Virus record (IMG/VR): IMGVR_UViG_3300035698_026017
Span: 1 to 23,050 of that record
From: a virus
DNA length: 23,050 bases
Strand: one strand, 5' to 3'
Shown: positions 9,428 to 22,893 of the stretch, in pieces
How the letters are laid out: the number at the start of each line of letters is the position of its first letter
How positions within the stretch are numbered: the stretch's first letter is position 1
Notes under the pieces: model-generated
Databases searched by the model: none
Told to the model about the DNA's origin: nothing
What the model saw: the letters and a program-made list of their open reading frames with translations, nothing else
Made by a program: the position numbers and the translations under genes

Positions 9428-9496
9428 ATAAACCTAATAAAATCAATGGTTTATAAAATTGATGATATTTAGAATGTATCTTAAAAAAAATGTAAA

Positions 9497-9542
9497 AAGT
9501 GAAGAAGTGGCTTGAGCAATAAAGTTAGTTACTTCTTCACTT
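9497..9542 (+). promoter_or_regulatory. 12-bp hairpin carrying a 17-nt repeat in its loop
   Basis: AAGTGAAGAAGT (9497-9508) pairs perfectly with ACTTCTTCACTT (9531-9542). The 22-nt loop contains repeat copy 1 (9514-9530). No T tract follows, so it is not a classical terminator. It may protect the gp18 mRNA 3' end or present the repeat as an RNA element. Confidence 0.6.
9514..9530 (+). repeat. 17-nt intergenic repeat, copy 1
   Basis: GAGCAATAAAGTTAGTT, identical to copies 3 (9625) and 5 (20173). Located in the loop of the 9497-9542 hairpin. Confidence 0.85.
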
Positions 9543-9557
9543 AAATTAAGACTTAGA

Positions 9558-9574
9558 GAGTAATAAAATTAGTT
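9558..9574 (+). repeat. 17-nt intergenic repeat, copy 2 (two mismatches)
   Basis: GAGTAATAAAATTAGTT matches the consensus at 15 of 17 positions. It lies 44 nt downstream of copy 1. Confidence 0.6.
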
Positions 9575-9624
9575 AAGATTCTTGAAGGTCTATAATCATT
9601 AAAAAACTGTCAAGGATACATAAG

Positions 9625-9641
9625 GAGCAATAAAGTTAGTT
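9625..9641 (+). repeat. 17-nt intergenic repeat, copy 3
   Basis: Exact copy of GAGCAATAAAGTTAGTT. It directly abuts the GATAAATA box at 9642-9649, as if repeat and promoter formed one element. Confidence 0.85.
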
Positions 9642-9649
9642 GATAAATA
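9642..9649 (+). promoter_or_regulatory. Late-promoter-like box of endonuclease cassette 1
   Basis: GATAAATA immediately after repeat copy 3. Transcription from it would begin close to the start of the 9656-9685 hairpin, about 65 nt before the ATG at 9719. Confidence 0.5.
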
Positions 9650-9655
9650 AAACAA

Positions 9656-9710
9656 GGATGATAGAACTTTAATCTTCTATCATCCTCTAATCAAAATCCG
9701 TAATAAGAGG
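9656..9710 (+). promoter_or_regulatory. Structured leader with possible SD sequestration, cassette 1
   Basis: A perfect hairpin (9656-9666 with 9675-9685) is followed by CCTCT (9684-9688), which is complementary to the Shine-Dalgarno AGAGG (9706-9710). The sequence CATCCTCTAATCA then TTACGAACATGACTAAA recurs before the gene at 20296. CC of CCTCT is shared between the two helices, so they compete, as in a translational switch. T4 homing endonucleases such as I-TevI are known to have their ribosome sites masked in early transcripts. Confidence 0.5.
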
Positions 9711-9718
9711 TTACGAAC

Positions 9719-9865
9719 ATGACTAAAGATATTTATACAGATCTTAAAGAATGGATAGAAAAAAATTTACTTGATAAGAATGAAAAATTAAATTCTCAGA
9801 GAGTTAAAAAAGATGGTTTGAAAAACAAAAAGAAGTTAAAAGATTTAATAAAATTATTAACATAA
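9719..9865 (+). pseudogene. 5' part of endonuclease gene 1, separated by a frameshift
   Basis: From ATG 9719, with AGAGG 8 nt upstream, a 48-codon frame starts MTKDIYTDLKEWIEKNLLDK and ends at TAA 9863-9865. The start context TTACGAACATGACTAAA is the same as for the other endonuclease cassettes, so this is the true gene start. The frame carrying the rest of the protein is open from 9808 and reads FNKIINITNFLNNKSG before the Met at 9892. Joining them needs a -1 shift between about 9808 and 9860, in A-rich sequence. Loss of one A, or an assembly error, is the simplest explanation. Confidence 0.65.
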
Positions 9866-9891
9866 CGAATTTTCTTAATAATAAATCTGGA

Positions 9892-10995
9892 ATGACTGAA
9901 CGAATATATTGTATAAGAAATAATATTAAAGAAATTCAATTATGTTCTTATTGTAATAAAGTTGTTAGATATAATGCAAATAAAAGTAAATATCAAGAAT
10001 ATTGTTCAACAAAATGTGCATCTAAAAAAAATATTAATATATCTCAGAAAAGACTAAAGAAATCATTATTCAAGAAATATGGAGTTGAAAATAGTAGTCA
10101 AATTCCAGGAGTTTCAGAAAAGATAAAAAAAACATGTCAGAGGAAATATGGTGTTGACAATCCATCTCAGATATGTTATAGTAAAGAAACTTTTAGAAGA
10201 TTAAATGATAAGGAGTGGTTAGAAAATCAATATAATATTTTTAATAAAAGTGTTCCATCAATAGCTAAAATAATTAATGTTTCGCCAAAAGCTATAATGA
10301 ATAGTTTTAAGAAATATAGTATTAAAACAAAAAATCGATGTAATATTTCTAAAAAATCTCGAAGAAAGATCAATGATAGAAAATGGATGATTCATCAACA
10401 TTATGTGTTAAAGAAACCAGTCTACAAAATAGGATTAGAAATTGGTGTCTCTCAAAGAACAATGACAATAATGTTTAGAGAGAAACACAATATTGAAATT
10501 AAAAATTATCGTATCTCTGAAGAAGCTGCAAGGAGATTTAAGGATAAAAAATGGCTTATAGAACAACATCATGTTAAAGAAAAACCAGTTTATGTTATAG
10601 CTAAAGATTTAGATGTTGCGGCAACATCAATGAGAGGGGTTTTTAAGAGGTTAGGAATAAAAATCAAAAGATTTCCAATTTCTGAGCTTGAAAAAGAAGT
10701 TTTAAGTTATGTCAAAGAAATTTATAATGGAGTTATAGAACATAATGATAGAACGATAATTGCTCCATTAGAACTTGATATTTATTTACCAAAGATAAAT
10801 AAAGCTATAGAGGTAGATGGAAGTTATTGGCACAAAGATGATGATTCAAAATATAATAGATCGAAGAAAGAACAATGTAGGATGGTAGGAGTTGATTTAC
10901 TACATATAACAGATTTAAATTGGTTAAAGAATAAATCAAAATCTTGTAAAGGAATCTTAAAACATATAGAAAGAAGAACTTCTAATGATTCTTGA
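9892..10995 (+). CDS. Homing endonuclease-like protein (Vsr-like/PD-(D/E)XK), body of cassette 1
   Basis: 367 residues from Met 9892, but the true N-terminus probably lies at 9719 behind a frameshift. In order: a Cys4 zinc-binding-like motif (CSYC then YCSTKC, residues ~19-42); two KYGVxNxSQ repeats (~63-105); three helix-turn-helix-like repeats each starting KEWL, RKWM or KKWL (~115-260); and a C-terminal nuclease-like domain LELDIYLPKINKAIEVDGSY then WHKD (~298-321). The last motif fits the Vsr/EDxHD type of PD-(D/E)XK homing enzymes (I-Bth0305I family). It would cut DNA lacking the element and drive its own spread. Its 3' end overlaps the next gene by 11 nt. Activity is uncertain because of the broken 5' end. 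Confidence 0.7.
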   Translation: MTERIYCIRNNIKEIQLCSYCNKVVRYNANKSKYQEYCSTKCASKKNINISQKRLKKSLFKKYGVENSSQIPGVSEKIKKTCQRKYGVDNPSQICYSKETFRRLNDKEWLENQYNIFNKSVPSIAKIINVSPKAIMNSFKKYSIKTKNRCNISKKSRRKINDRKWMIHQHYVLKKPVYKIGLEIGVSQRTMTIMFREKHNIEIKNYRISEEAARRFKDKKWLIEQHHVKEKPVYVIAKDLDVAATSMRGVFKRLGIKIKRFPISELEKEVLSYVKEIYNGVIEHNDRTIIAPLELDIYLPKINKAIEVDGSYWHKDDDSKYNRSKKEQCRMVGVDLLHITDLNWLKNKSKSCKGILKHIERRTSNDS

Positions 10996-12154
10996 AGAAA
11001 TGCAAAAAAGAATTAAAATAGAAATACTATCTATTAAGGGAAAGATAAGACCATCAAAATGTTCTGGAGAACTTTGGAAAAAGATAGAAGAAACTACTGA
11101 GTTTTTAGATAAAGATGCTTCAAGAGTAGAACGTATACATTGTATACTTTCTGGATTTTCAAAACTTCAAATGTGTCAATATTGTGGATTAAATCCAGTT
11201 AAGTTTCATGCAGCATTAAAAGGTTATTCCGAGACATGTTCTAAAAAATGTGCTGGACTTCTTCAAAATAATAAAAAAGGATTAGTAATAGATTTCATTA
11301 GAAATCTATATGATGGTGAAATCATTAAAAATACAAAGATTCCATTAGAACTTGATATATATCTTCCAGAGAAGAATTTTGGAGTTGAATTTAATGATAC
11401 ATATCAACATTCTTATAATAGAAAAGAAACTAAAGAAGAGCGAAAAAGTCATTTGAAAAAGACAGAGGAATGTGAAGTATTAGGAATTCATCTTTTACAG
11501 ATATTTTCTCACGAGTGGGAAGATAAGAAAAAAAGAGATATATGGAAATCAATTATTAGAAATAAATTAGGTAAGAATAAAGAAAAGATTTATGGAAGAA
11601 AAACTAAATTAAAGGTTATTGAAAAAGGAGATAAGAATCTCAGAAAAGAAGCTAAAAAGTTTTTAGATGATAATCATCTTCAAGGCCATGTATATTCATC
11701 TATGGCAATTGGTTTATATTATAATGATGAGTTAGTATCATTAATGACATTTGGAAAATCTAGATTCAATAAGAATTATGATTTTGAACTAGTACGATTT
11801 TGTTCTAAGAAAAATACTTCTGTTATTGGTGGTGCCCGAAAGATATATAAATATTTTAATTCATTGGTTGGGATAAATAGAATAGTGTCATATGCAGATA
11901 GAAGATTCTCAAATGGAAATCTCTATGAAGTTTTAGAAATGGAAAAAAAGAAAACATCAAAACCAAATTATTTTTATAGATCAAAAAATGGGGAGATATC
12001 AAGTAGAGTTGCATTTCAGAAACATAAGCTAGAAAAGAAACTAGAGAAGTTTTCAGAGAAATTAACTGAATCAGAAAATATGTTTATTAATTCATTTAGA
12101 AGATTTTGGGATTGTGGTAATTTAGTGTTTGGTACAAAGGGAGAAAGAGTATGA
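10985..12154 (+). CDS. Hef-like phage homing endonuclease
   Basis: 389 residues. N-terminal LWKKIEETTEFLDKD then a Cys4 motif (CQYC...CSKKC). Next is a PD-(D/E)XK/Vsr-like domain (LELDIYLPEKNFGVEFNDTY then QHS, followed by LKKTEECEVLGIHLLQIFSH). The C-terminal region has FELVRFCSKKNTSVIGGARK, GINRIVSYADRRFSNG and ends FRRFWDCGNLVFGTKG, a tail widely seen in phage Hef-like endonucleases. Where relatives usually have FNGxYWHS this one has FNDTYQHS, so catalysis may be altered. The start overlaps gene 9892-10995 by 11 nt and the end overlaps gene 12151 by four (ATGA). Likely a free-standing mobile endonuclease between gp18 and gp19. Confidence 0.8.
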   Translation: MILEEMQKRIKIEILSIKGKIRPSKCSGELWKKIEETTEFLDKDASRVERIHCILSGFSKLQMCQYCGLNPVKFHAALKGYSETCSKKCAGLLQNNKKGLVIDFIRNLYDGEIIKNTKIPLELDIYLPEKNFGVEFNDTYQHSYNRKETKEERKSHLKKTEECEVLGIHLLQIFSHEWEDKKKRDIWKSIIRNKLGKNKEKIYGRKTKLKVIEKGDKNLRKEAKKFLDDNHLQGHVYSSMAIGLYYNDELVSLMTFGKSRFNKNYDFELVRFCSKKNTSVIGGARKIYKYFNSLVGINRIVSYADRRFSNGNLYEVLEMEKKKTSKPNYFYRSKNGEISSRVAFQKHKLEKKLEKFSEKLTESENMFINSFRRFWDCGNLVFGTKGERV

Positions 12155-12573
12155 AATCGTTTAAAACATTTATAAAAGAGAATCAAATTTTTAAAGAAGA
12201 TATAGAAGATGAAACGGGGGGGTTTCCTTTAAAAGTTGTTAAAAAAATGCAATCTGATCTTGAGAAATATGTAAAATCAGTTTCAATTGGAACATGGAAA
12301 GCGAAAAAGCTTATTGATGATGGATTTAGAAGTAGTGCTAGGGTTTTTAATATTATTGTTGAAGAAAATGAAACAGTTAGGGATTCTTTTGAAATCTGGA
12401 TCCATGAAAAATCTGTTGGAAAAGTTTTTGTACGTATTCCACATGAAGGTTTACTTACATCTCGTCAACATAAAAATGCTAATCCTGCTGATATGAAAGA
12501 AACAATAGTAAAAACTCCAAAAGAAGCAATGAAAATAATATTAAATTATCTTAAAAAACACAAAGGTATTTAA
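12151..12573 (+). CDS. Putative internal head protein with capsid-targeting leader
   Basis: 140 residues. The N-terminus MKSFKTFIKEN closely follows the capsid-targeting sequence of T4 internal proteins (MKTYQEFIAEA). IKE|N fits the L/I-x-E rule for cleavage by gp21, giving a mature protein from residue 11. The mature part is Lys-rich and mixed alpha/beta, with a C-terminal helix (PKEAMKIILNYLKKHKG). ATG overlaps the stop of the upstream endonuclease (ATGA), and GGGAG at 12139-12143 provides a ribosome site. It would be packaged in the head and might be injected with the DNA. Family not recognised; the targeting idea rests on the leader alone. Confidence 0.6.
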   Translation: MKSFKTFIKENQIFKEDIEDETGGFPLKVVKKMQSDLEKYVKSVSIGTWKAKKLIDDGFRSSARVFNIIVEENETVRDSFEIWIHEKSVGKVFVRIPHEGLLTSRQHKNANPADMKETIVKTPKEAMKIILNYLKKHKGI

Positions 12574-12575
12574 TT

Positions 12576-12857
12576 ATGAAAAACTTGGAAGAAACATATA
12601 AAGTAATTATTGAAGGTGATTGGACAGCTCATCATATTCCAACAAAAACAATGAAGAATCCAGTTATATATGTTGATGATAAAGATAAAACATATTTATT
12701 AATTTGAGGTGGGCAGGATCAAATAGTTGGTACTAATAGATATAAATTCTATCTTAAAGAAAATGTTGATGTAAATACGTTTGCTAAAGAAATGAAAAAA
12801 ACATTAAATAAATATTGTGATAGTAATTTTATAATTAAATCTTGGGATGAAAAATAA
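12576..12857 (+). pseudogene. Small gene interrupted by in-frame TGA
   Basis: From ATG 12576 the frame reads MKNLEETYKVIIEGDW and on to codon 43, meets TGA at 12705-12707, then continues protein-like (GGQDQIVGTNRYKFYLKENV and so on to SWDEK) to TAA 12855-12857, 94 codons in all. The context LLI-stop-GGQD suggests a former Trp, Arg or Gly codon. The leader MKNLEETYKVIIE resembles MKNLVETYKTITE of the gene at 16362, and IIE|G could be a gp21 cleavage site. TGA is a normal stop elsewhere in the window, so recoding is unlikely. Probably a nonsense mutation. Confidence 0.6.
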
Positions 12858-12890
12858 CAATGGCAATACACTATAAAGGATTTTATTAAT

Positions 12891-13216
12891 ATGTTAATAA
12901 AAGATAAAGTCAAAGAAAATCTTTCTGAAACTTTTCAAAATATTATTGAAAAAGATTCTAATCAGATTATAGGAACTTCAAAACGATTGAAAATTAATAA
13001 AGAAATTACATCTTTATTAACCCCAAAGAATAAAACAAAATAGTTTAAATGATATTTAGATATTCTTAAGAAATATGAAATACTTCTTATCCAAGAAGAT
13101 AACACGGAGCTGATGCTAAATTTGAAATGTATGTTCCGATTACTAATCGGATTCTTGTAATGCAATATCATAAAATGTCAAGTGGTATGTGGGAAATATT
13201 TGCTTATGTAACATAA
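12891..13216 (+). pseudogene. Decayed small gene before gp19 (two stops and a frameshift)
   Basis: ATG 12891, with AAAGGA upstream, reads MLIKDKVKENLSETFQNIIE and on to TAG at 13041. After Phe-Lys there is TGA at 13050. The same frame then reads YLDILKKYEILLIQED. After a shift near 13100 another frame gives ADAKFEMYVPITNRILVMQY, then HKMSSGMWEIFAYVT and TAA at 13214-13216. The pieces look like one ~105-residue gene that has decayed. No function can be assigned. Apart from this and the gp19 promoter, nothing else is seen in 12858-13261. Confidence 0.55.
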
Positions 13217-13222
13217 TAAAAA

Positions 13223-13230
13223 GATAAATA
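13223..13230 (+). promoter_or_regulatory. Late promoter box before gp19 (GATAAATA)
   Basis: GATAAATA 32 nt upstream of the gp19 start, one mismatch from T4 TATAAATA. It restarts late transcription after the accessory block. Confidence 0.6.
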
Positions 13231-13261
13231 GAGAGAAGATTAAGTTATAAGGAGAAAAAAA

Positions 13262-13843
13262 ATGCCTTTTAGTGTATCAGAGTTTAGAACAAATTTAACT
13301 GGTGGTGGAGCTAGACCAACACTCTTTGAAGTTATTATGACTCCCCCAGCTGGATTATCATTATCTAGAGGTAATGCTGCTCAAGGGGCTCAAAAATTTA
13401 CATTTATGTGTAAAGCATCTTCGATTCCAGGAGTAACAATGGGAGCTGTTGAAATTCCATATTTTGGTCGTAAGATTCCAGTTCCAGGTGATAAAGTTTT
13501 TGCTGATTGGAATACAACAATTATTAATGATGAAGATTTTGCTGTAAGAGATATGGTTGAAGATTGGATGAGCTCAATGGGAGAACATGTTGAAAATATA
13601 GCTCAATCAAATAATCCTATTAATTATAGTGCAAACTTTGATGTTCTTCAATATGGTCGTGAAGGTAATGTCATTAAAGGATATAAAATTGTTGGAGCAT
13701 TTCCAATCGAACTTCCACAAATTGATCTTAGTTGGGAATCAAATGATGAGATTGAAGCTTTTGATGTAACATGGAAATATTCTCATTGGGAAGCAATTAC
13801 AACTGATGGTAAAGCTTCTATTTCTGTGAATGTATCATTCTAG
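13262..13843 (+). CDS. 19: gp19-like tail tube protein
   Basis: 193 residues (T4 gp19 is 163). The motif order fits myoviral tube proteins: N-terminal FSVSEFRTNLTGGGARPTLF, then FTFMCKASSIPGVTMGAVEI, PYFGRKIPVPGDKVF, and the C-terminal FPIELPQIDLSW followed by FDVTWKYSHWE. Stacked hexamers form the inner tube inside the gp18 sheath. AAGGAG lies just before the start, and a GATAAATA box further upstream. In T4 gp18 and gp19 are adjacent; here the 3.8 kb accessory block separates them. Confidence 0.93.
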   Translation: MPFSVSEFRTNLTGGGARPTLFEVIMTPPAGLSLSRGNAAQGAQKFTFMCKASSIPGVTMGAVEIPYFGRKIPVPGDKVFADWNTTIINDEDFAVRDMVEDWMSSMGEHVENIAQSNNPINYSANFDVLQYGREGNVIKGYKIVGAFPIELPQIDLSWESNDEIEAFDVTWKYSHWEAITTDGKASISVNVSF

Positions 13844-13857
13844 AAAGGTAGCATTTT

Positions 13858-15849
13858 ATGGCTGAATTTAAGATCTTTGGATTTACTTTAGGTAAAAAAA
13901 AGGTTGATCTTACTATTGATAATAGTAAGAAATCTTCTAAAACAATAGTAGTACCCATACCAAAGGAATCAGAAGAAGATGAAGTAATTGTATCATTTGG
14001 TTCTGGTGCTGGTGGATATATTGGTCAATCACTTAATTATGATGTTAAATCTGCATCAGATGATAAATCTGCAATAAATACATATAGAGAAATTGCCAAT
14101 AGTAGTGATATTGATAAAGCTATTGAAGAAATTGTTAATGAAGCTATTATAGTTGATGATGATATTTCTATTGATCTAATACTTGATAATTTACCTAAAA
14201 ATTATAAAGAAGATACTAAAAAATTATTTAGGGAAGAATTTTACAATATATTAAGATTAATGAATTTTAAATTTAAAGGTCAAGATCTTTTTAGAGAATG
14301 GTATATTGATGCAAGACTTTTTTACTATATGGTTGTTTCTGATAATAAAAAACAAGGTATTTTAGAGCTCAGAAAAATTGATCCAAGATTTATACAGAAA
14401 GTTGTATTAACTGAAGAAAAGATTGATGAAAAAACTGGAGTTAAATTTACAAAACGTATTGGTGAAATATATAATTATAATCCAACTACAAATCAAAGTT
14501 TGAATAATAATTATTATAATCAACCATTTCAAATGACAAAGGATAGTGTAGCACAATGTAATTCGGGTATAATAGATCATAATAATAATAGAGTTATAGG
14601 ATTTCTTGAAAAAGTAATTCGGCCATTTAATCAACTAAGAATGATGGAAAATTCAATGGTCGTTTATAGAATGTCAAGAGCTCCAGAACGAAGAGTATTT
14701 TATGTTGATGTTGGTAATTTACCTAAATTAAAAGCTGAAGAATATCTTAATAGTATTATGAGAAAACATCAAAATAAAATGATTTTTAATGAAACAACTG
14801 GATCAGTAGAAAATGATAAACGTCAAATGTCAATGCAAGAAGATTATTGGCTGCCAAGAAAAGAAGGTGGAAAAAGTACTGAAGTGACTACATTACAAGG
14901 TGGTTGTCTTGCAATGGATACTAAAATTTCTCTTATTGATGGAAGAGATTTGAGTATAAGAGAAATTGAAAATGAATTGAAGTCTGAAAAAGAATTATGG
15001 ACTTATTCTTGTCATCCAACTACTGGAAAGGTTGTCCCAGGACTTATTTCTTGGGCTGGTGTTACTCAAAAATCTGCTAAAGTACTTGAAATAACACTTA
15101 ATGATGAAAAAAAAATAGTGTGTACACCAGATCATCAATTTCCAATTTATGAAAAAGGATTTGTTAGAGCTGATGATCTTGTAATTAATGAAAAATTAAT
15201 TTCTAAGAAATTAAATCACAAAATTATTAAGATAAAATATCTTAATAATGAAATAGAAGTTGGTACACTTACTATAGATAAAGAAGAAAAATATTACAAT
15301 TATCATACATTTGTTCTTTCTTGTGGTATTTTCACAAAGAATAGTAATCTTGGTGATATTGAAGATATTTTATATTTTCAGAAAAAGTTGTATGAATCAT
15401 TAAATGTTCCAATAAGTAGATTAGAACCTGGAGAATCTTTTTCTCTTGGACGTTCTTCTGAGATAACAAGAGATGAACTTAAATTTTCAAAATTTATTAT
15501 AAGACTTAGAAATAAATTTTCACAAATTTTTGATGAAATTTTAAAAACTCAATTAATATTAAAAGGTATAATTAAAAAGAATGAATGGAAAGATATACAA
15601 CATTTAATTATCTATGATTTTAAGAAAGATACATATTTTAGTGAACTTAAAGAATCTGAAATTATGCGAGAACGATTTTCATCATTAAATGATATTAATG
15701 ATTTTGTTGGCATTTATATTTCAAAAGAGTGGGTTAAAAAACATATCTTAAAACAGACAGAAGAAGAGCGAAAAAAAATGAAAGAAGAAATAGAAATTGA
15801 AAAAAAAGCAGAACCATCAAATGAAGATTCTAATGAAAAATGGAATTAA
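13858..15849 (+). CDS. 20: gp20-like portal protein interrupted by an intein
   Basis: 663 codons. The exteins (1-349 and 496-663, 517 residues, near the 524 of T4 gp20) contain family blocks such as FREWYIDARLFYYMV, ELRKIDPRFIQ, YRMSRAPERRVFYVDVGNLP and MSMQEDYWLPRKEGGKSTEV. After the intein come LGDIEDILYFQKKLYESLNV and SEITRDELKFSKFI. The portal dodecamer nucleates prohead assembly and is the DNA entry channel for gp17. Splicing is needed because the intein splits the highly conserved segment TLQGG / SNLGDIEDI. AAAGG precedes ATG 13858, 14 nt after gp19 ends. Confidence 0.95.
   Translation: MAEFKIFGFTLGKKKVDLTIDNSKKSSKTIVVPIPKESEEDEVIVSFGSGAGGYIGQSLNYDVKSASDDKSAINTYREIANSSDIDKAIEEIVNEAIIVDDDISIDLILDNLPKNYKEDTKKLFREEFYNILRLMNFKFKGQDLFREWYIDARLFYYMVVSDNKKQGILELRKIDPRFIQKVVLTEEKIDEKTGVKFTKRIGEIYNYNPTTNQSLNNNYYNQPFQMTKDSVAQCNSGIIDHNNNRVIGFLEKVIRPFNQLRMMENSMVVYRMSRAPERRVFYVDVGNLPKLKAEEYLNSIMRKHQNKMIFNETTGSVENDKRQMSMQEDYWLPRKEGGKSTEVTTLQGGCLAMDTKISLIDGRDLSIREIENELKSEKELWTYSCHPTTGKVVPGLISWAGVTQKSAKVLEITLNDEKKIVCTPDHQFPIYEKGFVRADDLVINEKLISKKLNHKIIKIKYLNNEIEVGTLTIDKEEKYYNYHTFVLSCGIFTKNSNLGDIEDILYFQKKLYESLNVPISRLEPGESFSLGRSSEITRDELKFSKFIIRLRNKFSQIFDEILKTQLILKGIIKKNEWKDIQHLIIYDFKKDTYFSELKESEIMRERFSSLNDINDFVGIYISKEWVKKHILKQTEEERKKMKEEIEIEKKAEPSNEDSNEKWN
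14905..15342 (+). mobile_element. Mini-intein in the portal protein (146 residues)
   Basis: Residues 350-495 of the portal gene. Block A starts at Cys350 (CLAMDTKISLIDGRDLSI). Block B is CTPDHQ, with Thr423 and His426 in the TxxH pattern. The C-terminal end is NYHTFVLSCGIFTKN with terminal Asn495, followed by nucleophile Ser496 of the C-extein. The penultimate residue is Lys494 instead of the usual His. No LAGLIDADG or HNH domain fits in the ~45 residues between blocks B and F, so it is a splicing-only mini-intein. The boundaries are strongly supported because removing it restores the T4-like portal sequence. Confidence 0.93.
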
Positions 15850-15874
15850 TATATAGAAAGGAAGGTATAGTATA

Positions 15875-16066
15875 ATGAGACCACAACGAAATAGAACAGA
15901 AACAATTGGAATAATAGTTCAAAATATTAAACAAAAAACTGTTGAAAATCTTCCAACTCTTATTAATGATACTATAAGAGAAAAAGTTGATTCTATGATA
16001 GAAAAAAAGCGACCAGTTATATCTAAAAAGATGGGTGGAAAAAAATCAAAAAGAGGTATTGAATAA
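15875..16066 (+). CDS. Small basic protein in the gene 67/68 position
   Basis: 63 residues with a basic C-terminus (KKRPVISKKMGGKKSKRGIE) and an amphipathic helix in the middle. AGAAAGG then AGGTATAG precede ATG 15875. It lies between portal and prohead protease, where T4 has genes 67 and 68 (prohead core). No sequence similarity to the acidic T4 gp67 is apparent. A core or DNA-binding role is only a positional guess. Its TAA overlaps the next ATG by one base. Confidence 0.6.
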   Translation: MRPQRNRTETIGIIVQNIKQKTVENLPTLINDTIREKVDSMIEKKRPVISKKMGGKKSKRGIE

Positions 16067-16353
16067 TGACAAATGATTCACCACTTAGACAAGTTGTAAC
16101 AAATTCAGATGATCCAACATTTAGAACTGTTATAAATGCTACATCATTTTTATCTAATACTAAACCAACATGTTTATATATACCAACAAATAATGTTGGT
16201 GATGATCCATTAATTATTGTTATGGCTAATGATGTTGAATCAAATGGTGAAATTATGGTAGAAACTACATTAAATAATCTTCCAATTGGATTTCATAATC
16301 TTCAATTAGCTAAAATTGTTTCAGCACCACCAAATACTGTGGCATTTAAATAA
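16066..16353 (+). CDS. Hypothetical beta-rich small protein
   Basis: 95 residues of alternating hydrophobic strands (TCLYIPTNNVG, DPLIIVMAND, GEIMVETTLNNL, LQLAKIVSAPPNTVAF), which suggests a small beta-sandwich. It overlaps the upstream stop (TAATG), so it is probably translationally coupled. It sits within the head-assembly block, and a head decoration or core role is possible but unproven. Family not recognised. Confidence 0.6.
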   Translation: MTNDSPLRQVVTNSDDPTFRTVINATSFLSNTKPTCLYIPTNNVGDDPLIIVMANDVESNGEIMVETTLNNLPIGFHNLQLAKIVSAPPNTVAFK

Positions 16354-16361
16354 AGGGAGAA

Positions 16362-16688
16362 ATGATGAAAAATTTAGTAGAAACATATAAAACTATTACA
16401 GAAAGTAAAGAAGATTTATTAACAGAAGCAGTTAAGAAAACTAAACTTACAGTTGAGCTACCAATGATTCTTACTGGAATTCCTTTTGATGATACTAGAA
16501 ATGTTCAAGATTATTTACGTATTTTTTTAAAAGAGAAAAAAGTTAAGGTTGAAGAAATTGATACTTTAGATCCAGAAGATGAAAATGAATATGATATGTT
16601 AGTTAGTTATCTTGACGCAGTTATAGTTTTTATTGGTCGTCTACCCGATAAAAAAACTATAAAGCAAATGCTTGATAAAGCAAAGTAA
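16362..16688 (+). CDS. Small prohead-core-type protein (gene 68 position)
   Basis: 108 residues. AGGGAG precedes ATGATG; the second Met (16365) has the better spacing and gives MKNLVETYKTITESKEDLLTEAV, read here as two segments: leader MKNLVETYKTITE and then DLLTEAV. LLTE|A matches the gp21 cleavage rule (L/I-x-E before a small residue). The leader resembles that of the interrupted gene at 12576. The rest has an acidic middle (EEIDTLDPEDENEYD). Position between portal and protease suggests a prohead core protein processed by gp21; homology to T4 gp68 is not visible by eye. Confidence 0.6.
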   Translation: MMKNLVETYKTITESKEDLLTEAVKKTKLTVELPMILTGIPFDDTRNVQDYLRIFLKEKKVKVEEIDTLDPEDENEYDMLVSYLDAVIVFIGRLPDKKTIKQMLDKAK

Positions 16689-16703
16689 TATTGGAGAAGA
16701 ATA

Positions 16704-17321
16704 ATGAGATTACTTCAAGAAGCATCTGAAAATATTTCAATTGATAAAAAAAACTATATCATTCAGGGTATATTCATTCAATGTGATGTTGAAAATGGTA
16801 ATGGAAGAATTTATCCTTTGGATGTTGTAAAGCCAGAAGTTGATAAATATATTACAGAGAAAATTAAAACTAAAAGATCATTAGGAGAATTAGGGCATTC
16901 CGATTCTCCTTCAATTAAGCTTGATAGAGTTTCTCATTTAATAACTGAATTAAAACTTAATGGATCAAATTATTATGGTAAAGCTATTGTAGCAGATACT
17001 CCAAGAGGAAAAATAATTAAAAATCTTATTGATTTAGGAGTTACTTTAGGTGTTTCTACTCGTGGTATTGGATCAGTTAAGAAAAAAAATGGGGTTGATA
17101 TAGTTGATAGTGATTTTGTTTTATCTACAATAGATGTGGTTTCAGAACCATCAGCTCCAGCTGCTTTTGTTGAAGGTTTAATGGAATCTGTTGATAAATG
17201 GATTATTGATGATAATGGTGAATTTATTGAAAAAGCTCAAAGTAAAATTCGTAGGACGAAAATGGATACAATAGAAAAAGTTGGATTAAATTTATTTAAG
17301 GAATTTATGAAAAAGTATTAA
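16704..17321 (+). CDS. 21: gp21-like prohead protease
   Basis: 205 residues (T4 gp21 is 212). A serine protease of the phage/herpesvirus maturation-protease type. Conserved blocks: GNGRIYPLDV (~33-41), GELGHSDSPSIKLDRVSHLI (61-80) with catalytic His65, and LGVTLGVSTRGIGS (111-124) with nucleophile Ser118. SEPSAPAAFV follows (~147-156). It cleaves gp23, gp22 and core proteins after L/I-x-E during maturation. Its own N-terminus MRLLQE|A has such a site and may be self-cleaved. ATG 16704 follows GGAGA at 16693. It precedes gp22 and gp23 as in T4. Confidence 0.94.
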   Translation: MRLLQEASENISIDKKNYIIQGIFIQCDVENGNGRIYPLDVVKPEVDKYITEKIKTKRSLGELGHSDSPSIKLDRVSHLITELKLNGSNYYGKAIVADTPRGKIIKNLIDLGVTLGVSTRGIGSVKKKNGVDIVDSDFVLSTIDVVSEPSAPAAFVEGLMESVDKWIIDDNGEFIEKAQSKIRRTKMDTIEKVGLNLFKEFMKKY

Positions 17322-17343
17322 TATAGGTTGAAAAATTAATATG

Positions 17344-17351
17344 TATAAATA
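17344..17351 (+). promoter_or_regulatory. T4 consensus late promoter box before gp22 (TATAAATA)
   Basis: TATAAATA is an exact match to the T4 late -10 box, 58 nt upstream of the scaffold gene in the 88-nt gap after gp21. It would supply strong late transcription of gp22 and gp23. Confidence 0.7.
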
Positions 17352-17409
17352 ATTATATAACTATTGAATTGTTAAAAAAAATGATAATTAGAAAAGAGGA
17401 GATAGATAA

Positions 17410-18672
17410 ATGTTAAATATTCGAAAAGAATTAACTGATGAAGATCTTAAGAATCTTCAAACACTTATTCTAGAAACTAAGAAATCAAAAAAAGAAGATG
17501 AAAAAGAAGATGAAAAAGAAGATGAAGAAAATGAAGATGATGAAAAAGAAGATGAAGATGATGAAGAACTTAATGAAAAAGAAGATGAAGATGATGAAAA
17601 AGAAGATGAAGATGATGAAAAAGAAGATGATGAAGAAATTAATGAAGAAGATGAAGATGAAGATGAAGAAGATGAAGATGAAGATAAAGAAGATGAAGAT
17701 AAAGATAAAGAAGATGATGAAGATGATGAAGATGAAGAAGATGAAGAAGATGAACTTGAAGAGAAAAAAGTGAAAATAAAGCGTAAAGGTAAAATGGTAA
17801 CTATTGATAAGAAAAAAATGAGCTCAAAAGAAAAAATGAATAGAAAAAAGGGTGCTAAAAAAGCACTTAAAACAAAAGGAGCTTCTGGACTTAAGGCAGC
17901 TGCTAAGAAAGCTAAGAAAACTAAAAAGCGATTTGAATCTTTAGATTTAGATAAGATTCTTGAAAAGATTACTAAGGGTCGTGATGTATCTGAAGAATTT
18001 ATTACAGAGGCAAGACTTGTTATTGATGCTGCACTTACAGAAAAAACAAATGAAATGGAATTAGAGTTCGAAAACGCTCTTTCCGAAAAGTTTAAGAAAG
18101 CTGTGGAAATTGTTACTGAAAATGTTGAGAAAAATACTGATAGCTACTTAACTTATATTGCGGAAGAGTGGATGAAAGCAAACACTTTAGCAGTTGATCG
18201 CGGTCTAAGGTCACAACTTACTGAAGGATTTATTATTGATCTTAAGATACTTCTAGAGAATCATAATATTAACCTTCCAGAAGATCAAGTTGATGTTCTA
18301 GAAAATCAAGCAGACCAGATTCAAAAACTTGAAGAGCAACTTCGTGGTGAGATTCAGTCTAATGTAGTACTTAAAGAATCTAACGAAAATCTTCAACGTG
18401 ATTCAGTTATCTCTGAAGTAGGTTCAGATTTAACAGTAACAGAATCAGATCGTTTTGAATCATTAACTGAAAGTGTTGATTTTTCAAATAAAGAAGAATT
18501 TGAAGAGAAGATTAAAGTTATTAAAGAATCATTTTTCAGTGAGGAAGACGATTCTGAAGACACAAGATCTATAATGAATGAAAGTGTTTCTTTAAATCAA
18601 AATGAAGGTTCAGAAATGAGTGAAAAAATGGCAATTTATACTAATGCAATTAGGCGAGTTCATACTCAATAA
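17410..18672 (+). CDS. 22: gp22-like prohead scaffold with long acidic/basic N-terminal extension
   Basis: 420 residues against 269 for T4 gp22. The C-terminal ~245 residues match gp22: YIAEEWMKANTLAVDRGLRS, then LKILLENHNINLPEDQVDVL, a coiled-coil region (~300-335), and LTESVDFSNKEEFEEKI. The N-terminus carries an insertion: residues 28-118 are almost only Asp/Glu/Lys, and residues 119-174 are strongly basic (KVKIKRKGKMVTIDKKKM). Candidate gp21 cleavage sites are FITE200|A201 and QLTE|G. It forms the core around which gp23 assembles and is degraded by gp21. AGAGGAG precedes ATG 17410. The acidic tract resembles T4 gp67 in composition, so fusion of core functions is possible. Confidence 0.85.
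   Translation: MLNIRKELTDEDLKNLQTLILETKKSKKEDEKEDEKEDEENEDDEKEDEDDEELNEKEDEDDEKEDEDDEKEDDEEINEEDEDEDEEDEDEDKEDEDKDKEDDEDDEDEEDEEDELEEKKVKIKRKGKMVTIDKKKMSSKEKMNRKKGAKKALKTKGASGLKAAAKKAKKTKKRFESLDLDKILEKITKGRDVSEEFITEARLVIDAALTEKTNEMELEFENALSEKFKKAVEIVTENVEKNTDSYLTYIAEEWMKANTLAVDRGLRSQLTEGFIIDLKILLENHNINLPEDQVDVLENQADQIQKLEEQLRGEIQSNVVLKESNENLQRDSVISEVGSDLTVTESDRFESLTESVDFSNKEEFEEKIKVIKESFFSEEDDSEDTRSIMNESVSLNQNEGSEMSEKMAIYTNAIRRVHTQ
17491..17763 (+). repeat. Low-complexity GAA/GAT/AAA codon tract in gp22
   Basis: About 90 codons drawn almost only from GAA, GAT and AAA in short imperfect tandem units (for example GAAGATGAAGATGATGAA). It encodes the acidic part of the scaffold and is likely to vary in length by slippage. 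Confidence 0.85.
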
Positions 18673-18702
18673 ATTGCCAAATTCACAAAGGAGAACAAGA
18701 AA

Positions 18703-20031
18703 ATGATGAATAATGGTCAAGAAATTCTATCAGAAGCGCTTATGAATAAATGGGCTCCTCTATTAGATCATAAAGATGCGCCAGAAATTAAAGATGCTTA
18801 TCGGCGTAGTGTTACAGCAATTCTATTAGAAAATCAAGAACGATTTTTAACAGAAGCAGCTCCAGCTAATAACATGGGTGGGGGTAATGTTAATACATTT
18901 GATCCAGTTCTAATTTCTATGATTAGACGTTCAATGCCACAACTAATTGCTTATGATATTTGTGGAGTACAGCCAATGACTGGTCCTACTGGTCTTATCT
19001 TTGCTCTTAAATCTGAATATCAAAAGCAAGGTGGTACTGAAGCTCTTTATAATGAAGCTAATGCAGCATTCTCAGCACAAGCTATTGGTGGTTATGGTGC
19101 TGATGGTAGTACTGGTTATGCAAATGCAATGATTAGTGGAGACTTCTCTAATGTAACTTCAACTCAATTTGTTGATAATGACATTACTGGTCATCCATTT
19201 AATGCTCCAAAGGGAATGACTACAGCACTTGCTGAAGGTCTAGGTGGTGACTCAGATGATTATTTCAATGAAATGGCATTCTCAATTTCTAAGGTTACTG
19301 TAACTGCTAAGAGTCGTGCATTAAAAGCAGAATATACAACTGAATTAGCTCAAGACCTTAAAACTATTCATGGTCTAGATGCTGAGTCAGAATTAGCTAA
19401 TATGCTTAGTAATGAAATTCTTGCAGAAATTAACCGTGAAGTTATTCGTACAATCTATCTTGAAGCTAAGCTTGGTTGTGCTGCTGGTACGACTACAACT
19501 ACAGCTGTATTTGATATGGATACAGATGCTAATGGCCGTTGGGCTGCTGAAAAAATGCGTGGCCTTCAGTTCCAGATTGAGCGTGAAGCTAACTATATTG
19601 CTCAAGATACCCGTCGAGGTAAAGGTAACTTAATCATTTGTTCAGCTGATACAGCTTCTGGTCTAAATATGGCTGGTCTATTAACTCAAACTCCAGAGTC
19701 CTTGAATGTTGATCCAGCGGTTTCAACATTTGCTGGTCTCTTGGGTGGAATGAAAGTATATGTTGATCCATTCTATACAGCTCCTTCAACTGGTTATCAA
19801 TATGCACTAGTTGGTTATAGGGGTACTAATGCTTATGATGCTGGTCTCTTTTATTGTCCTTATGTTCCTCTAGAGATGATTCGAGCAGTGGGCGAACATA
19901 CATTCCAACCAAAGATAGCCTTTAAAACTAGATATGGTATCGTATCGAATCCTTTTGTGAACAGTACTGGAGCTCTTGCTTATAATCAGAATAGTTATTA
20001 TCGTCGATTCCAAATTCGTAACCTTGCTTAG
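18703..20031 (+). CDS. 23: gp23-like major capsid protein
   Basis: 442 residues, shorter than T4 gp23 (521). The N-terminus has EALMNKWAPLLDHKDAPEI and IRRSMPQLIAYDICGVQPM followed by TGPTGLIFAL, the T4 family signature. FLTE51|A52 is the expected gp21 cleavage site that removes the N-terminal delta piece. Later blocks include YTTELAQDLKTIHGLDAESE, ARAEL-like segments and FKTRYGIVSNPF (near the end). AAAGGAG precedes ATGATG at 18703; the first Met has acceptable spacing. Base composition is less A-rich than that of its neighbours, consistent with codon selection in a highly expressed gene. A terminator follows at 20056. Confidence 0.96.
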   Translation: MMNNGQEILSEALMNKWAPLLDHKDAPEIKDAYRRSVTAILLENQERFLTEAAPANNMGGGNVNTFDPVLISMIRRSMPQLIAYDICGVQPMTGPTGLIFALKSEYQKQGGTEALYNEANAAFSAQAIGGYGADGSTGYANAMISGDFSNVTSTQFVDNDITGHPFNAPKGMTTALAEGLGGDSDDYFNEMAFSISKVTVTAKSRALKAEYTTELAQDLKTIHGLDAESELANMLSNEILAEINREVIRTIYLEAKLGCAAGTTTTTAVFDMDTDANGRWAAEKMRGLQFQIEREANYIAQDTRRGKGNLIICSADTASGLNMAGLLTQTPESLNVDPAVSTFAGLLGGMKVYVDPFYTAPSTGYQYALVGYRGTNAYDAGLFYCPYVPLEMIRAVGEHTFQPKIAFKTRYGIVSNPFVNSTGALAYNQNSYYRRFQIRNLA

Positions 20032-20055
20032 ATCAATGGTTTACATGGAATTTTT

Positions 20056-20086
20056 AAGAGTGGAAATTAATTTTTCCACTCTTTTT
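20056..20086 (+). terminator. Intrinsic terminator after gp23
   Basis: An 11-bp perfect stem, AAGAGTGGAAA (20056-20066) with TTTCCACTCTT (20073-20083), loop TTAATT, followed by T residues. It lies 24 nt after the capsid gene stop. Confidence 0.85.
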
Positions 20087-20102
20087 ATTATCCAAAATAC
20101 TT

Positions 20103-20119
20103 GAACAATAAAGTTAGTT
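20103..20119 (+). repeat. 17-nt intergenic repeat, copy 4 (one mismatch)
   Basis: GAACAATAAAGTTAGTT, 16 of 17 matches to the consensus, 70 nt upstream of copy 5. Confidence 0.8.
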
Positions 20120-20130
20120 AAAAACCCCCA

Positions 20131-20170
20131 AAAATTCCTAAAAACTTTTAAAAATTCTTAAAAACTTTTA
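20131..20170 (+). repeat. 20-bp tandem repeat, two units
   Basis: Units 20131-20150 and 20151-20170 differ at one base (AAAATTCCTAAAAACTTTTA against AAAATTCTTAAAAACTTTTA). They fill the space between repeat copies 4 and 5. Confidence 0.85.
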
Positions 20171-20172
20171 TA

Positions 20173-20189
20173 GAGCAATAAAGTTAGTT
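20173..20189 (+). repeat. 17-nt intergenic repeat, copy 5
   Basis: Exact copy of GAGCAATAAAGTTAGTT, upstream of the second endonuclease cassette. Confidence 0.85.
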
Positions 20190-20216: not shown

Positions 20217-20225
20217 GAATAAATA
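20217..20225 (+). promoter_or_regulatory. Late-promoter-like box of endonuclease cassette 2
   Basis: GAATAAATA holds the TAAATA core and occupies the same place, just upstream of the hairpin leader, as GATAAATA at 9642 in cassette 1. Confidence 0.4.
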
Positions 20226-20230
20226 AAGGT

Positions 20231-20287
20231 GAGAATGAAAGAAGGTATAACTTCTTTCATCCTCTAATCATATTCATAAGGAGAGGG
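20231..20287 (+). promoter_or_regulatory. Structured leader with possible SD sequestration, cassette 2
   Basis: A hairpin of 14 pairs with one mismatch (20231-20244 with 20251-20264). CCTCT at 20261-20265 is complementary to AGAGG at 20282-20286, the Shine-Dalgarno of the gene at 20296. CATCCTCTAATCA and TTACGAACATGACTAAA are identical to cassette 1, while the stem sequences differ. Confidence 0.5.
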
Positions 20288-20367
20288 TTACGAACATGAC
20301 TAAATCTATTTATCATCAACCTAAAGACATATTATTCATTTCAAGATTCACTAAAGAAGAATTTGAT
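20288..20367 (+). repeat. 80-nt direct repeat, copy 1 (gene start)
   Basis: 79 of 80 bases are identical to 21439-21518. It begins 8 nt before ATG 20296 and covers the first 24 codons. Confidence 0.95.
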
Positions 20368-21450
20368 GAATCAAAGAAAAATCATAAAGAAAAGATTCTA
20401 GAAGTTAAATGTATTATTTGTGGTACATTATTCCTTACCAGCAGAATGAAAATTCTTCAAGATATGAATCCTAAAGTTAGATCAACGGTGAGATATTGTT
20501 CTACTAAATGTTCTAAAATTGGTATAGGTAATAGAAAAGCTAAAATATCATCAGATTTTTTAGATCATCCAGAAGAACTGTCATTCATCCCTAAATTTAC
20601 TAAAGAAGAATTCGATAGAGCCATTAAAGACTATAGAGGGAAAATATTAGGTCTTGAATGTGTTGTTTGTGGCAAAAACTTTCTTGGAAGTAGACATAAA
20701 ATAATTGCTGCATTAAATCCAAATCTTGCAGATTCAATGAGAACATGTTCTCATACATGTTTTCTTAAAGATAGATCATCTAGACAGAGATCTTTATATT
20801 CTTCAGATTTCTTAGATCATCCCGAAGAACTTGCATTTATTCCTAAATTTACTAAAAAATTATTTGAAGAATCAAGTCAATTGGAAAATGTATTAAAAGT
20901 TGAATGTATAGAATGTGGTAAAAATTTCTATACAAATAGAAAAATGATTATTGATGCACTTAATCCAATTAAAACTAATACATCTCAATATTGTTCTATC
21001 GAATGTGCTATTATAAAAAATGGAAGAGTCAAAAGATCTAAATATTCATCAGATTTTTTAGATCATCCAGAAGAACTTTCATTCATTCCTAAATTTACTA
21101 AAAAAGAATTTGAAAATGATACATCAAAGGATAAAACACTTAAAATAGAATGTCAAGATTGTGGCAAAATTTTTCTAACAGATCGTAATAATGTTCAATC
21201 AGCTATTAATCCTAAATATCATAAAGCTCTTGCAACTTGTGGTATTGCATGTTCATGTGCTTTACCAATTCCAGAATTTACTGAAGAAGAATTTGCTATA
21301 GGAGATAAAAATATTAGTGATGTTTTAGAAGGTGATGTTATTAACCATGATTTAACTATCTATGAAAATTTTGATTTTGATGAATATTCAAAAGAAATGG
21401 GTATAACAAAAAAAGACATTTCAGAATATTTAAAGTCTTTACGAACATGA
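20296..21450 (+). CDS. Repeat zinc-finger-like protein of the endonuclease family (no nuclease domain seen)
   Basis: 384 residues built from four homologous units (about 1-84, 85-168, 169-250, 251-325). Each has SSDFLDHPEELSFIPKFTKE or a variant, then a four-cysteine pattern: LKVECxxCGKxF, RxxIxxAxNP, and YCSxxC. These look like zinc-binding DNA-recognition modules. The C-terminal ~60 residues are acidic, and no PD-(D/E)XK, HNH or GIY-YIG motif is visible. AGAGGG precedes ATG 20296 inside a structured leader. The stop overlaps the start of its paralog (ATGA). It may be a DNA-binding partner of the following nuclease, or a nuclease that lost its catalytic domain. Confidence 0.65.
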   Translation: MTKSIYHQPKDILFISRFTKEEFDESKKNHKEKILEVKCIICGTLFLTSRMKILQDMNPKVRSTVRYCSTKCSKIGIGNRKAKISSDFLDHPEELSFIPKFTKEEFDRAIKDYRGKILGLECVVCGKNFLGSRHKIIAALNPNLADSMRTCSHTCFLKDRSSRQRSLYSSDFLDHPEELAFIPKFTKKLFEESSQLENVLKVECIECGKNFYTNRKMIIDALNPIKTNTSQYCSIECAIIKNGRVKRSKYSSDFLDHPEELSFIPKFTKKEFENDTSKDKTLKIECQDCGKIFLTDRNNVQSAINPKYHKALATCGIACSCALPIPEFTEEEFAIGDKNISDVLEGDVINHDLTIYENFDFDEYSKEMGITKKDISEYLKSLRT

Positions 21451-21518
21451 CTAAATCTATTTATCATCAACCTAAAGGCATATTATTCATTTCAAGATTC
21501 ACTAAAGAAGAATTTGAT
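21439..21518 (+). repeat. 80-nt direct repeat, copy 2 (gene start)
   Basis: Second copy, beginning 8 nt before ATG 21447. The Shine-Dalgarno AGAGG found upstream of copy 1 is not part of the repeat and is absent here (AAAGTC instead). The single difference changes Asp11 to Gly. Confidence 0.95.
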
Positions 21519-22409
21519 AAAGTTCCTAATTCGAATCTTAAAATTCTTAAAATAAAATGTCAACAATGTCATAAAATATTTTATTGTTCTAAAACACAAA
21601 TTTTAAGAGCAATAAATGTTAATAATAATAGTACACATCAATTTTGTTCTCAAAAATGTAGAGGACAGTTTAATAGTGAAAAATTAAGAAAATCTAATAT
21701 TACTGTTTGTGAAGTTTGTGGTATTAAATTTTTTAAATATGAATCTGAAAAGAAAAAATCAAAACATAATTATTGCTCTCAAAAATGTGCTAGACCAGCA
21801 ATTAATAAACAGTTAAGATCTAAACAATCCTCAGATTTTTTAAAGCATCCAAAAGAACTTTCATTTATCCCTAAATTTACTAAAGAAAAATTTGATAAAG
21901 TTCCTAATTCTAATCTTAAAATTCTTAATATAGAATGTCAACAATGTTATAAAACTTTTAAAGTTTCAAGAATTCAGATAATTAATGCAATTAATCCAAA
22001 TATTTCAAATACTTTGAAATTTTGTTCAAAGAGATGTTGTACTACATTTAATATCGAACATGGTATTTTTGGTAAACGATCAATGATGGAAAAATATATT
22101 GAAAAAAAACTTAAAAATACATATAAAAATATTAACATTCTTTTCAATGATAAAAATTTTCTTGAAGGGCTTGAATTAGACATTTTTATACCATCTCTAA
22201 AAATAGCTTTTGAAATTGATGGTATCTTTCATTTCAAACCAATATTTGGTGAAAAAGTTCTTAAAAGACATCAAAAAAATGATAAGAAAAAGAACTTACT
22301 TTGTAATAAATTAGGAATAAATCTTCAACGAATTGATATTAGTTATTTAAGTAAATTTACTGAAGAAAAAGGAGAAGTAATTTTTAAAGAAATAATTTCG
22401 CATTTATAA
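21447..22409 (+). CDS. Vsr-like/PD-(D/E)XK homing endonuclease
   Basis: 320 residues. The first 24 residues are nearly identical to those of the upstream paralog. Cys4 zinc-like modules follow: CQQC...CSQKC (39-71), CEVC...CSQKC (88-114), and CQQC...CSKRC (164-197) within a unit that repeats FDKVPNSNLKIL. The C-terminal nuclease-like domain (~211-305) has GLELDIFIPSLKIAFEIDGI then FHF (Glu243, Asp245, Glu256, Asp258, His262) and KRHQKNDKKKNLLCNKLGIN, the pattern of Vsr/EDxHD-type homing enzymes. Its start overlaps the previous stop (ATGA) and lacks its own ribosome site, so reinitiation is likely. A free-standing homing endonuclease downstream of the capsid gene. Confidence 0.75.
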   Translation: MTKSIYHQPKGILFISRFTKEEFDKVPNSNLKILKIKCQQCHKIFYCSKTQILRAINVNNNSTHQFCSQKCRGQFNSEKLRKSNITVCEVCGIKFFKYESEKKKSKHNYCSQKCARPAINKQLRSKQSSDFLKHPKELSFIPKFTKEKFDKVPNSNLKILNIECQQCYKTFKVSRIQIINAINPNISNTLKFCSKRCCTTFNIEHGIFGKRSMMEKYIEKKLKNTYKNINILFNDKNFLEGLELDIFIPSLKIAFEIDGIFHFKPIFGEKVLKRHQKNDKKKNLLCNKLGINLQRIDISYLSKFTEEKGEVIFKEIISHL

Positions 22410-22431: not shown

Positions 22432-22893
22432 TTATATATAATTAATATTAGCACCATTCTCTAAGAGAACCTTAACAATTTTATAATAACCATTAGAAGC
22501 AGCATATCTCAAAGCATAATCATTCTTAGCATGAACATCAGCACCATTCTCTAGTAGAATCTTAACAGTCTCATAATAACCATTATAAGAAGCCCATCTT
22601 AAAGCTTCATCATTCTCAGCATGAACATCAGCATTATATTCTATTAGAATCTTGACAATTTCTGGATAACAATTAGAAGCAGCATATCTCAGAGCTTTAT
22701 TATTATCAGCATGAACATCAGCATTATAATCTAATAGAATCTTGACAGTTTTATAATAACCATAATAAGAAGCCAATCTTAAAGCTTCATCATTATTAGC
22801 ATGAACATTAGCACCATTCTCTAGAAGAAGCTTGACAGACTCTATATGACCATTAGAAGCAGCTTTTTTAAGTTCTAGATTCATCTCATTCAT
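22432..22893 (-). CDS. Ankyrin-repeat protein (30-residue repeat type), minus strand
   Basis: 153 residues made almost wholly of five 30-residue ankyrin-like units, for example NDEALRLASYYGYYKTVKIL then LDYNADVHADN. Start MNEMN is the same as in the gene at 3-713, and the units are clearly homologous. There is no C-terminal extra domain and no signal peptide. The mRNA leader has AGGGAG about 10 nt before ATG, and a perfect sigma70-type promoter lies at 22932-22960. It is convergent with the endonuclease gene, 22 nt away. Transcription by unmodified host polymerase suggests early expression, unlike the late genes around it. A role in host protein binding is inferred from the fold only. Confidence 0.85.
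   Translation of the reverse strand: MNEMNLELKKAASNGHIESVKLLLENGANVHANNDEALRLASYYGYYKTVKILLDYNADVHADNNKALRYAASNCYPEIVKILIEYNADVHAENDEALRWASYNGYYETVKILLENGADVHAKNDYALRYAASNGYYKIVKVLLENGANINYI

Follow-up and report, generated by a model that had tools for sequence, protein, structure and literature searches.

The virion gene block and its endonuclease cassettes

The window, that is, the whole 23,050-base virus record over which the motif described below was counted, carries the block of virion genes of a T4-like phage. Its gene order is gp13-gp14-gp15-gp16-gp17-gp18, an inserted homing endonuclease (HEN) block, gp19-gp20-gp21-gp22-gp23 and a second HEN-type block. Identity of the capsid protein to those of known phages and most IMG/VR relatives does not exceed about 60%, with one partial MAG fragment reaching 62%, and the full-length matches of the sheath protein are mostly below 60%; capsid and sheath comparisons across known phages and IMG/VR recovered no near sibling of this phage. 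In gp22, close to its start (17424-17813), Glu/Asp/Lys repeats form a long and highly acidic stretch. Both ends of the window bear ankyrin-repeat ORFs, unusual neighbors for T4-like virion genes, which lie inverted with respect to each other (3-713 on the plus and 22432-22893 on the minus strand) and are 76% complementary over 404 nt; the one at the window start includes a perfect tandem 30-nt repeat (59-118).

The presence of a HEN-family protein between conserved genes, together with the matches to phrog_3339/559, identifies a free-standing homing endonuclease cassette. Since gp18 and gp19 of the relatives are usually just 10-50 nt apart, the gp18-side block can be recognized as an insertion; the gap 3' of gp23 in relatives is mostly 70-130 nt. 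HEN 1 is split by a frame shift between ORF 9719-9865 and ORF 9892-10995, which could reflect decay, a sequencing error or a programmed shift. ORF 12151-12573 has no family match, and decayed ORF remnants (12574-13261) fill the space between the HEN block and gp19. On the gp23 side, ORF 20296-21450 (hereafter ORF 20296) and ORF 21447-22409 are paralogous zinc-finger-like repeat proteins, the first 83 nt of which are 98% identical. HEN 1 and HEN 3 share 31% identity over 100 residues. A search for relatives of ORF 20296 and ORF 21447 found none, solved structures offered no relevant match, PADLOC gave no match and a tRNA search found none.

The 17-nt repeat and the shared leader

The 291-nt gap 3' of gp18 and the 264-nt gap 3' of gp23 harbor a 17-nt repeat in five plus-strand copies, three of them exact, one matching at 16/17 and one at 15/17 positions (Table 1). 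The repeat is real: dinucleotide shuffling predicts 0.17 (about 0.2) matches with up to three mismatches across the window, as against an observed six that none of the shuffles attained. The initial annotation had listed these five copies, and we recover all of them at the places given there, on the plus strand. It had also confined the motif to the two noncoding gaps, which holds for the five copies but overlooks a sixth match (15/17) in antisense inside gp23, on account of which the motif is not strictly limited to the gaps. For matches of this quality, with up to two mismatches, the expectation in the window is 0.0115 under a Markov model, and codon resampling of the virion genes gives 0.025. 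Its placement of one copy in a hairpin loop is roughly right: copy 1 sits atop a perfect 12-bp stem (arms 9497-9508/9531-9542), and in the minimum-energy fold its own ends pair further up the stem. The copy said to abut a late-promoter-like box, copy 3 at 9625, indeed directly adjoins GATAAATA at 9642. Likewise, both gaps lie directly upstream of a cassette, as had been noted, but ORF 20296 lacks a recognizable nuclease and the ORF following gp18 is frame-shifted near its start.

Table 1. Features of the two gaps, their cassettes and the matching coding sites, in window coordinates
Feature	Position	Strand	Remarks
gp18 C-terminal SINFISLNFIAT codons	9352..9383	-	antisense of relatives differs from the 17-mer at as few as 2 positions
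ATCAATGGTTTA just after gp18 stop	9442..9453	+	weak
gp18 3' hairpin	9497..9542	+	12-bp perfect lower stem, no U-run
17-mer copy 1	9514..9530	+	exact, 0 mismatches; atop gp18 3' hairpin
17-mer copy 2	9558..9574	+	2 mismatches: C4T, G11A
17-mer copy 3	9625..9641	+	exact; adjoins late-promoter box
Late-promoter-like box GATAAATA	9642..9649	+	77 nt before ATG
Shared leader hairpin 1	9655..9686	+	
Ribosome-site/start segment GAGGTTACGAACATGACTAAA	9704..9734	+	shared
HEN 1	9719..10995	+	9719-9865 plus 9892-10995, frame-shifted between
HEN 2	10985..12154	+	phrog_3339 / phrog_559
Antisense 17-mer match in gp23	19587..19603	-	15/17; codes EANYIAQ, codons 295-301; candidate homing-site-like sequence
ATCAATGGTTTA directly after gp23 stop	20032..20043	+	weak
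gp23 intrinsic-terminator-like hairpin, then T-rich tract	20056..20088	+	fold and sequence
17-mer copy 4	20103..20119	+	1 mismatch: G3A
17-mer copy 5	20173..20189	+	exact; 28 nt 5' of the late-promoter box
Late-promoter-like box AATAAATA	20218..20225	+	78 nt before ATG
Shared leader hairpin 2	20232..20263	+	T-A to A-T exchange preserves pairing; one A-C mismatch
Ribosome-site/start segment, gp23-side leader	20281..20311	+	shared
Zinc-finger-like repeat protein (ORF 20296)	20296..21450	+	related to HEN DNA-binding parts; nuclease not recognized
HEN 3	21447..22409	+	same repeat type as ORF 20296; nuclease-like C-terminus related to HEN 1

The stop codon of gp18 is followed by ATCAATGGTTTA, the hairpin with copy 1, copy 2, copy 3 with GATAAATA, a hairpin, GAGGTTACGAACATGACTAAA and HEN 1, and that of gp23 by ATCAATGGTTTA, a terminator-like hairpin, copies 4 and 5, AATAAATA, a hairpin, GAGGGTTACGAACATGACTAAA and ORF 20296. 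Both cassettes are headed by a common leader of late-promoter box, hairpin and GGTTACGAACATGACTAAA. The leader 3' of the last 17-mer is homologous between the cassettes (alignment score 69.5 versus 21.5±5.0, reached by 0/500 shuffles), and the last two copies follow the same order with a spacing of 67 nt in the gp18 gap and 70 nt in the gp23 gap. Gap sequence outside the 17-mers and the leader has no detectable likeness (score 38 versus 31.7±5.7, 73/500 shuffles), which suggests that the 17-mers were either selectively kept or separately copied and spread. Since the proteins of the two cassettes share only a distant relationship, conservation is far stronger in the leader, and most of all in the 17-mers, than in the genes that follow. 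The recurrence of ATCAATGGTTTA after both stops is weakly significant, with about 3% of simulated gap pairs sharing a word of this length; NATAAATA occurs six times in 2.2 kb of non-coding plus strand as against nine times in coding DNA totaling about 21 kb.

Distribution and antisense likeness to gp18 and gp23 codons

Beyond the window, IMG/VR scans with the exact and the degenerate 17-mer returned about chance numbers and no copy in a recurring context: the contexts of the 18 exact-pattern matches are unrelated, with several of these matches coming from near-identical contigs of a single locus, and a two-copy match (L179) was discarded as a duplicated coding segment. Similarly, no copy in a recurring context emerged from 1.56 Mb comprising 151 loci of T4-like phages, where the 12 matches with up to three mismatches equal the chance number. 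The 17-mer was not found in the gp18 and gp23 gaps of relatives, a search with the 18-nt leader/start sequence gave no match, blastn of both gaps against phages returned AT-rich noise only, and the window has no match at gathering score in Rfam 15. The earlier suggestion of an independently mobile element is therefore not supported, there being no recurring-context copy in IMG/VR or in the 151 loci. A proposed comparison with relatives carrying the same cassette also went against it: a different T4-like phage (L163-L165) independently possesses a related HEN between gp18 and gp19, at the same place, with neither the 17-mer nor an operator-like match to gp18/gp19 at that locus.

All 12 matches in the T4-like phages are antisense to virion genes, with several in the last gp18 codons and one at the gp23 motif noted above. 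We therefore averaged, over the aligned relatives, the mismatches to the 17-mer at each of 20,248 position-strand sites spread over 11 virion genes. The best four distinct sites, all antisense, are gp18 9352 (SINFISL), gp23 19587 (EANYIAQ), gp23 18936 (MPQLIAY) and gp18 9367 (SLNFIAT), with both gp18 sites falling within its last 76 nt. Among control random 17-mers the top two sites comprise gp18 and gp23 in 3-4%, the top four are confined to these two genes in 0.5-1.7% and the best one maps to the final 100 nt of gp18 in 0.5-2.7%. These figures must be read bearing in mind that the test was conceived once the gp23 match was known and that gp18 and gp23 had served to fetch the relatives. The window's own gp18 site differs from the 17-mer at six positions, which is about the family average, and an unbiased ungapped scan of gaps against genes turns up chance matches of equal quality in gp22 (score 15.5). 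We rejected the idea that co-conversion had left behind a piece of gp18 3' coding sequence as the repeat, because the orientation is inverted.

A candidate operator and the competing readings

We tentatively propose, at a probability of a little over one in three, that the 17-mer is an operator of the HEN cassettes that mimics homing targets in gp18 and gp23 and holds down the late promoter of the cassettes. Briefly, the conserved gp18 and gp23 codons would be the homing targets cleaved by proteins of the HEN family, and cassette proteins would also bind the 17-mer DNA, at two or three sites per promoter-proximal leader. Bound to these look-alike sites they might repress their own late promoter, much as I-TevI does at its operator. 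The binder would be a protein of this family, possibly the zinc-finger ORF 20296. This proposal draws on the occurrence of the 17-mer in HEN-type leaders, its proximity to late promoters and its resemblance to codons of exactly the two neighboring genes; that antisense likeness we take as moderate evidence. The endonuclease target entertained in the initial annotation comes close to it, as the resemblance to conserved coding sites of gp18 and gp23 fits an operator that mimics a homing site. Against the proposal, binding specificity cannot be read from the proteins, and the related HEN of L163-L165 has neither the 17-mer nor an operator-like match to gp18/gp19. Further, copy 3 adjoins its box and copy 5 lies 28 nt upstream, with no copy overlapping the promoter; since that is the nearest copy in the gp23 leader, simple promoter occlusion is a weakened option there.

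The closest precedent is I-TevI of T4, the operator of which is 15/20 identical to the homing site, overlaps a late promoter and mediates self-repression; I-TevII and I-TevIII have similar sites, but autorepression via a homing-site-like operator is proven for I-TevI alone, an intron-encoded rather than free-standing enzyme (PMC2988022). The present leaders resemble these operators in having, at or near a late promoter just 5' of a HEN gene, a site similar to a putative coding target, and in a leader RNA hairpin. They differ in that their HENs stand free and belong to another nuclease type, each leader has two to three copies, one site is shared by two cassettes and binding to it is a prediction.

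Two of the competing readings place the action of the repeat in RNA. It is unlikely that the 17-mer is a transcribed stem-loop, A-G-C[AAUAAA]G-U-U plus a flanking stem, with a role in termination, processing or stability in the 3' UTRs of two highly expressed operons. All five copies do lie 3' of gp18 and gp23 on the strand that is transcribed, copy 1 tops a strong hairpin, and the folds of both gaps are more stable than those of shuffled sequence (z -6.2 and -4.2); the C4U and G11A changes of copy 2 would be compensatory, and G3A in copy 4 keeps a pair with U12. However, we estimate that such a compensatory double change has a chance of about 1-3% with alternative stems allowed, and the motif's absence from the gaps of relatives and from Rfam speaks against this reading. 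We demoted this reading because in longer context only copy 1 folds in this manner (pairing probability 0.6-0.9, versus 0-0.28 in copies 2-5 with longer flanks). The RNA-protein site suggested earlier is conceivable, but a consistent fold across the copies fails. Very improbable is an antisense mechanism, in which transcripts of the 17-mer would pair with gp23 mRNA to modulate capsid translation. The orientation is right: five sense copies face an antisense gp23 match, which grows to 18/20 nt when the CTT on the 5' side of copies 1 and 4 is counted. Of everything in the window, four of the five copies pair best with gp23 (-19.0 to -25.9 kcal/mol); but these energies are not exceptional, as random window 25-mers reach -21 to -26 kcal/mol against gp23, and a target this deep in the coding region (codons 295-301) is unusual for translational control.

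Two others invoke DNA without a dedicated binder. T4-type phages recombine readily over short homology, and the repeats could be duplicated or recombined parts of HEN leaders, maintained by gene conversion between cassettes with no present function. The homology of the leaders and the agreement in copy order and spacing favor such a passive origin, which we nevertheless hold doubtful: recent conversion should have homogenized the neighboring sequence too, yet the stretches between copies are not detectably similar while the 17-mers remain at 15-17/17. It is quite improbable that the 17-mer is an upstream element of the late promoters or terminators of the phage, unrelated to HENs. The operons that end in these gaps are strongly expressed in T4, and copy 3 touches a late box; even so, the other late-type boxes of the window (782, 13223 and 17344) have no 17-mer, and the spacing to the box differs by 28 nt in the gp23 gap.

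If the operator proposal is taken further, the two free-standing cassettes might share one multi-copy operator mimicking antisense sheath and capsid codons, with the nuclease-less paralog ORF 20296 perhaps acting as a dedicated repressor, such that a single site would link the choice of homing target, HEN expression and possibly virion gene control. In this full form we deem the scenario unlikely. The operator proposal itself has a parallel in CapR, a pure repressor derived from the zinc-finger DNA-binding domain of a HEN, which silences expression of the capsid in phage ICP1 (PMC10448857): ORF 20296 is likewise a HEN-related zinc-finger-like protein, with no recognized nuclease, beside a capsid gene, whereas CapR is satellite-encoded and represses the capsid genes of its helper. 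Were the operator proposal correct, free-standing HENs of another nuclease type would also autorepress, pointing to a general strategy by which selfish nucleases persist while sparing the phage. Moreover, a HEN's homing target, otherwise difficult to predict, could then be read from its operator sequence.

The initial annotation had likened the repeat to PeSLs, the promoter-early/stem-loop cassettes of T4-type phages, as something related but different; the evidence supports a regulatory element that the HEN cassettes have in common and that is not a PeSL. The definition of PeSLs used here draws in part on a citing paper (PMC4503421). As in PeSLs, promoter and stem-loop units recur at gene borders, the latter being the hairpins at 9655-9686 and 20232-20263; unlike in PeSLs, the repeated core is not the stem-loop and occurs with HEN cassettes only. 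PeSL membership is rejected because the promoters, judged from GATAAATA and AATAAATA, are of the late type and not early, host sigma-70-like ones. The 75-bp extragenic repeats of the Campylobacter T4-like phages CP220/CPt10 are also short gap repeats of an AT-rich T4-like phage, but form long tandem arrays in place of isolated 17-mers (PMC2853527). In T4, segD sits between genes 23 and 24 and so, as here, a HEN adjoins gene 23, but it is a GIY-YIG enzyme, antisense to gene 23, for which no promoter was found. In Aeromonas phage 25, seg43(25) has a comparable stable hairpin just 5' of an unsequestered RBS; the consulted passages on segD and seg43(25) mention no repeat like the 17-mer. As for the site of insertion, the same-family HEN between gp18 and gp19 of the unrelated T4-like phage (L163:3371-4846) suggests a recurrent insertion point.
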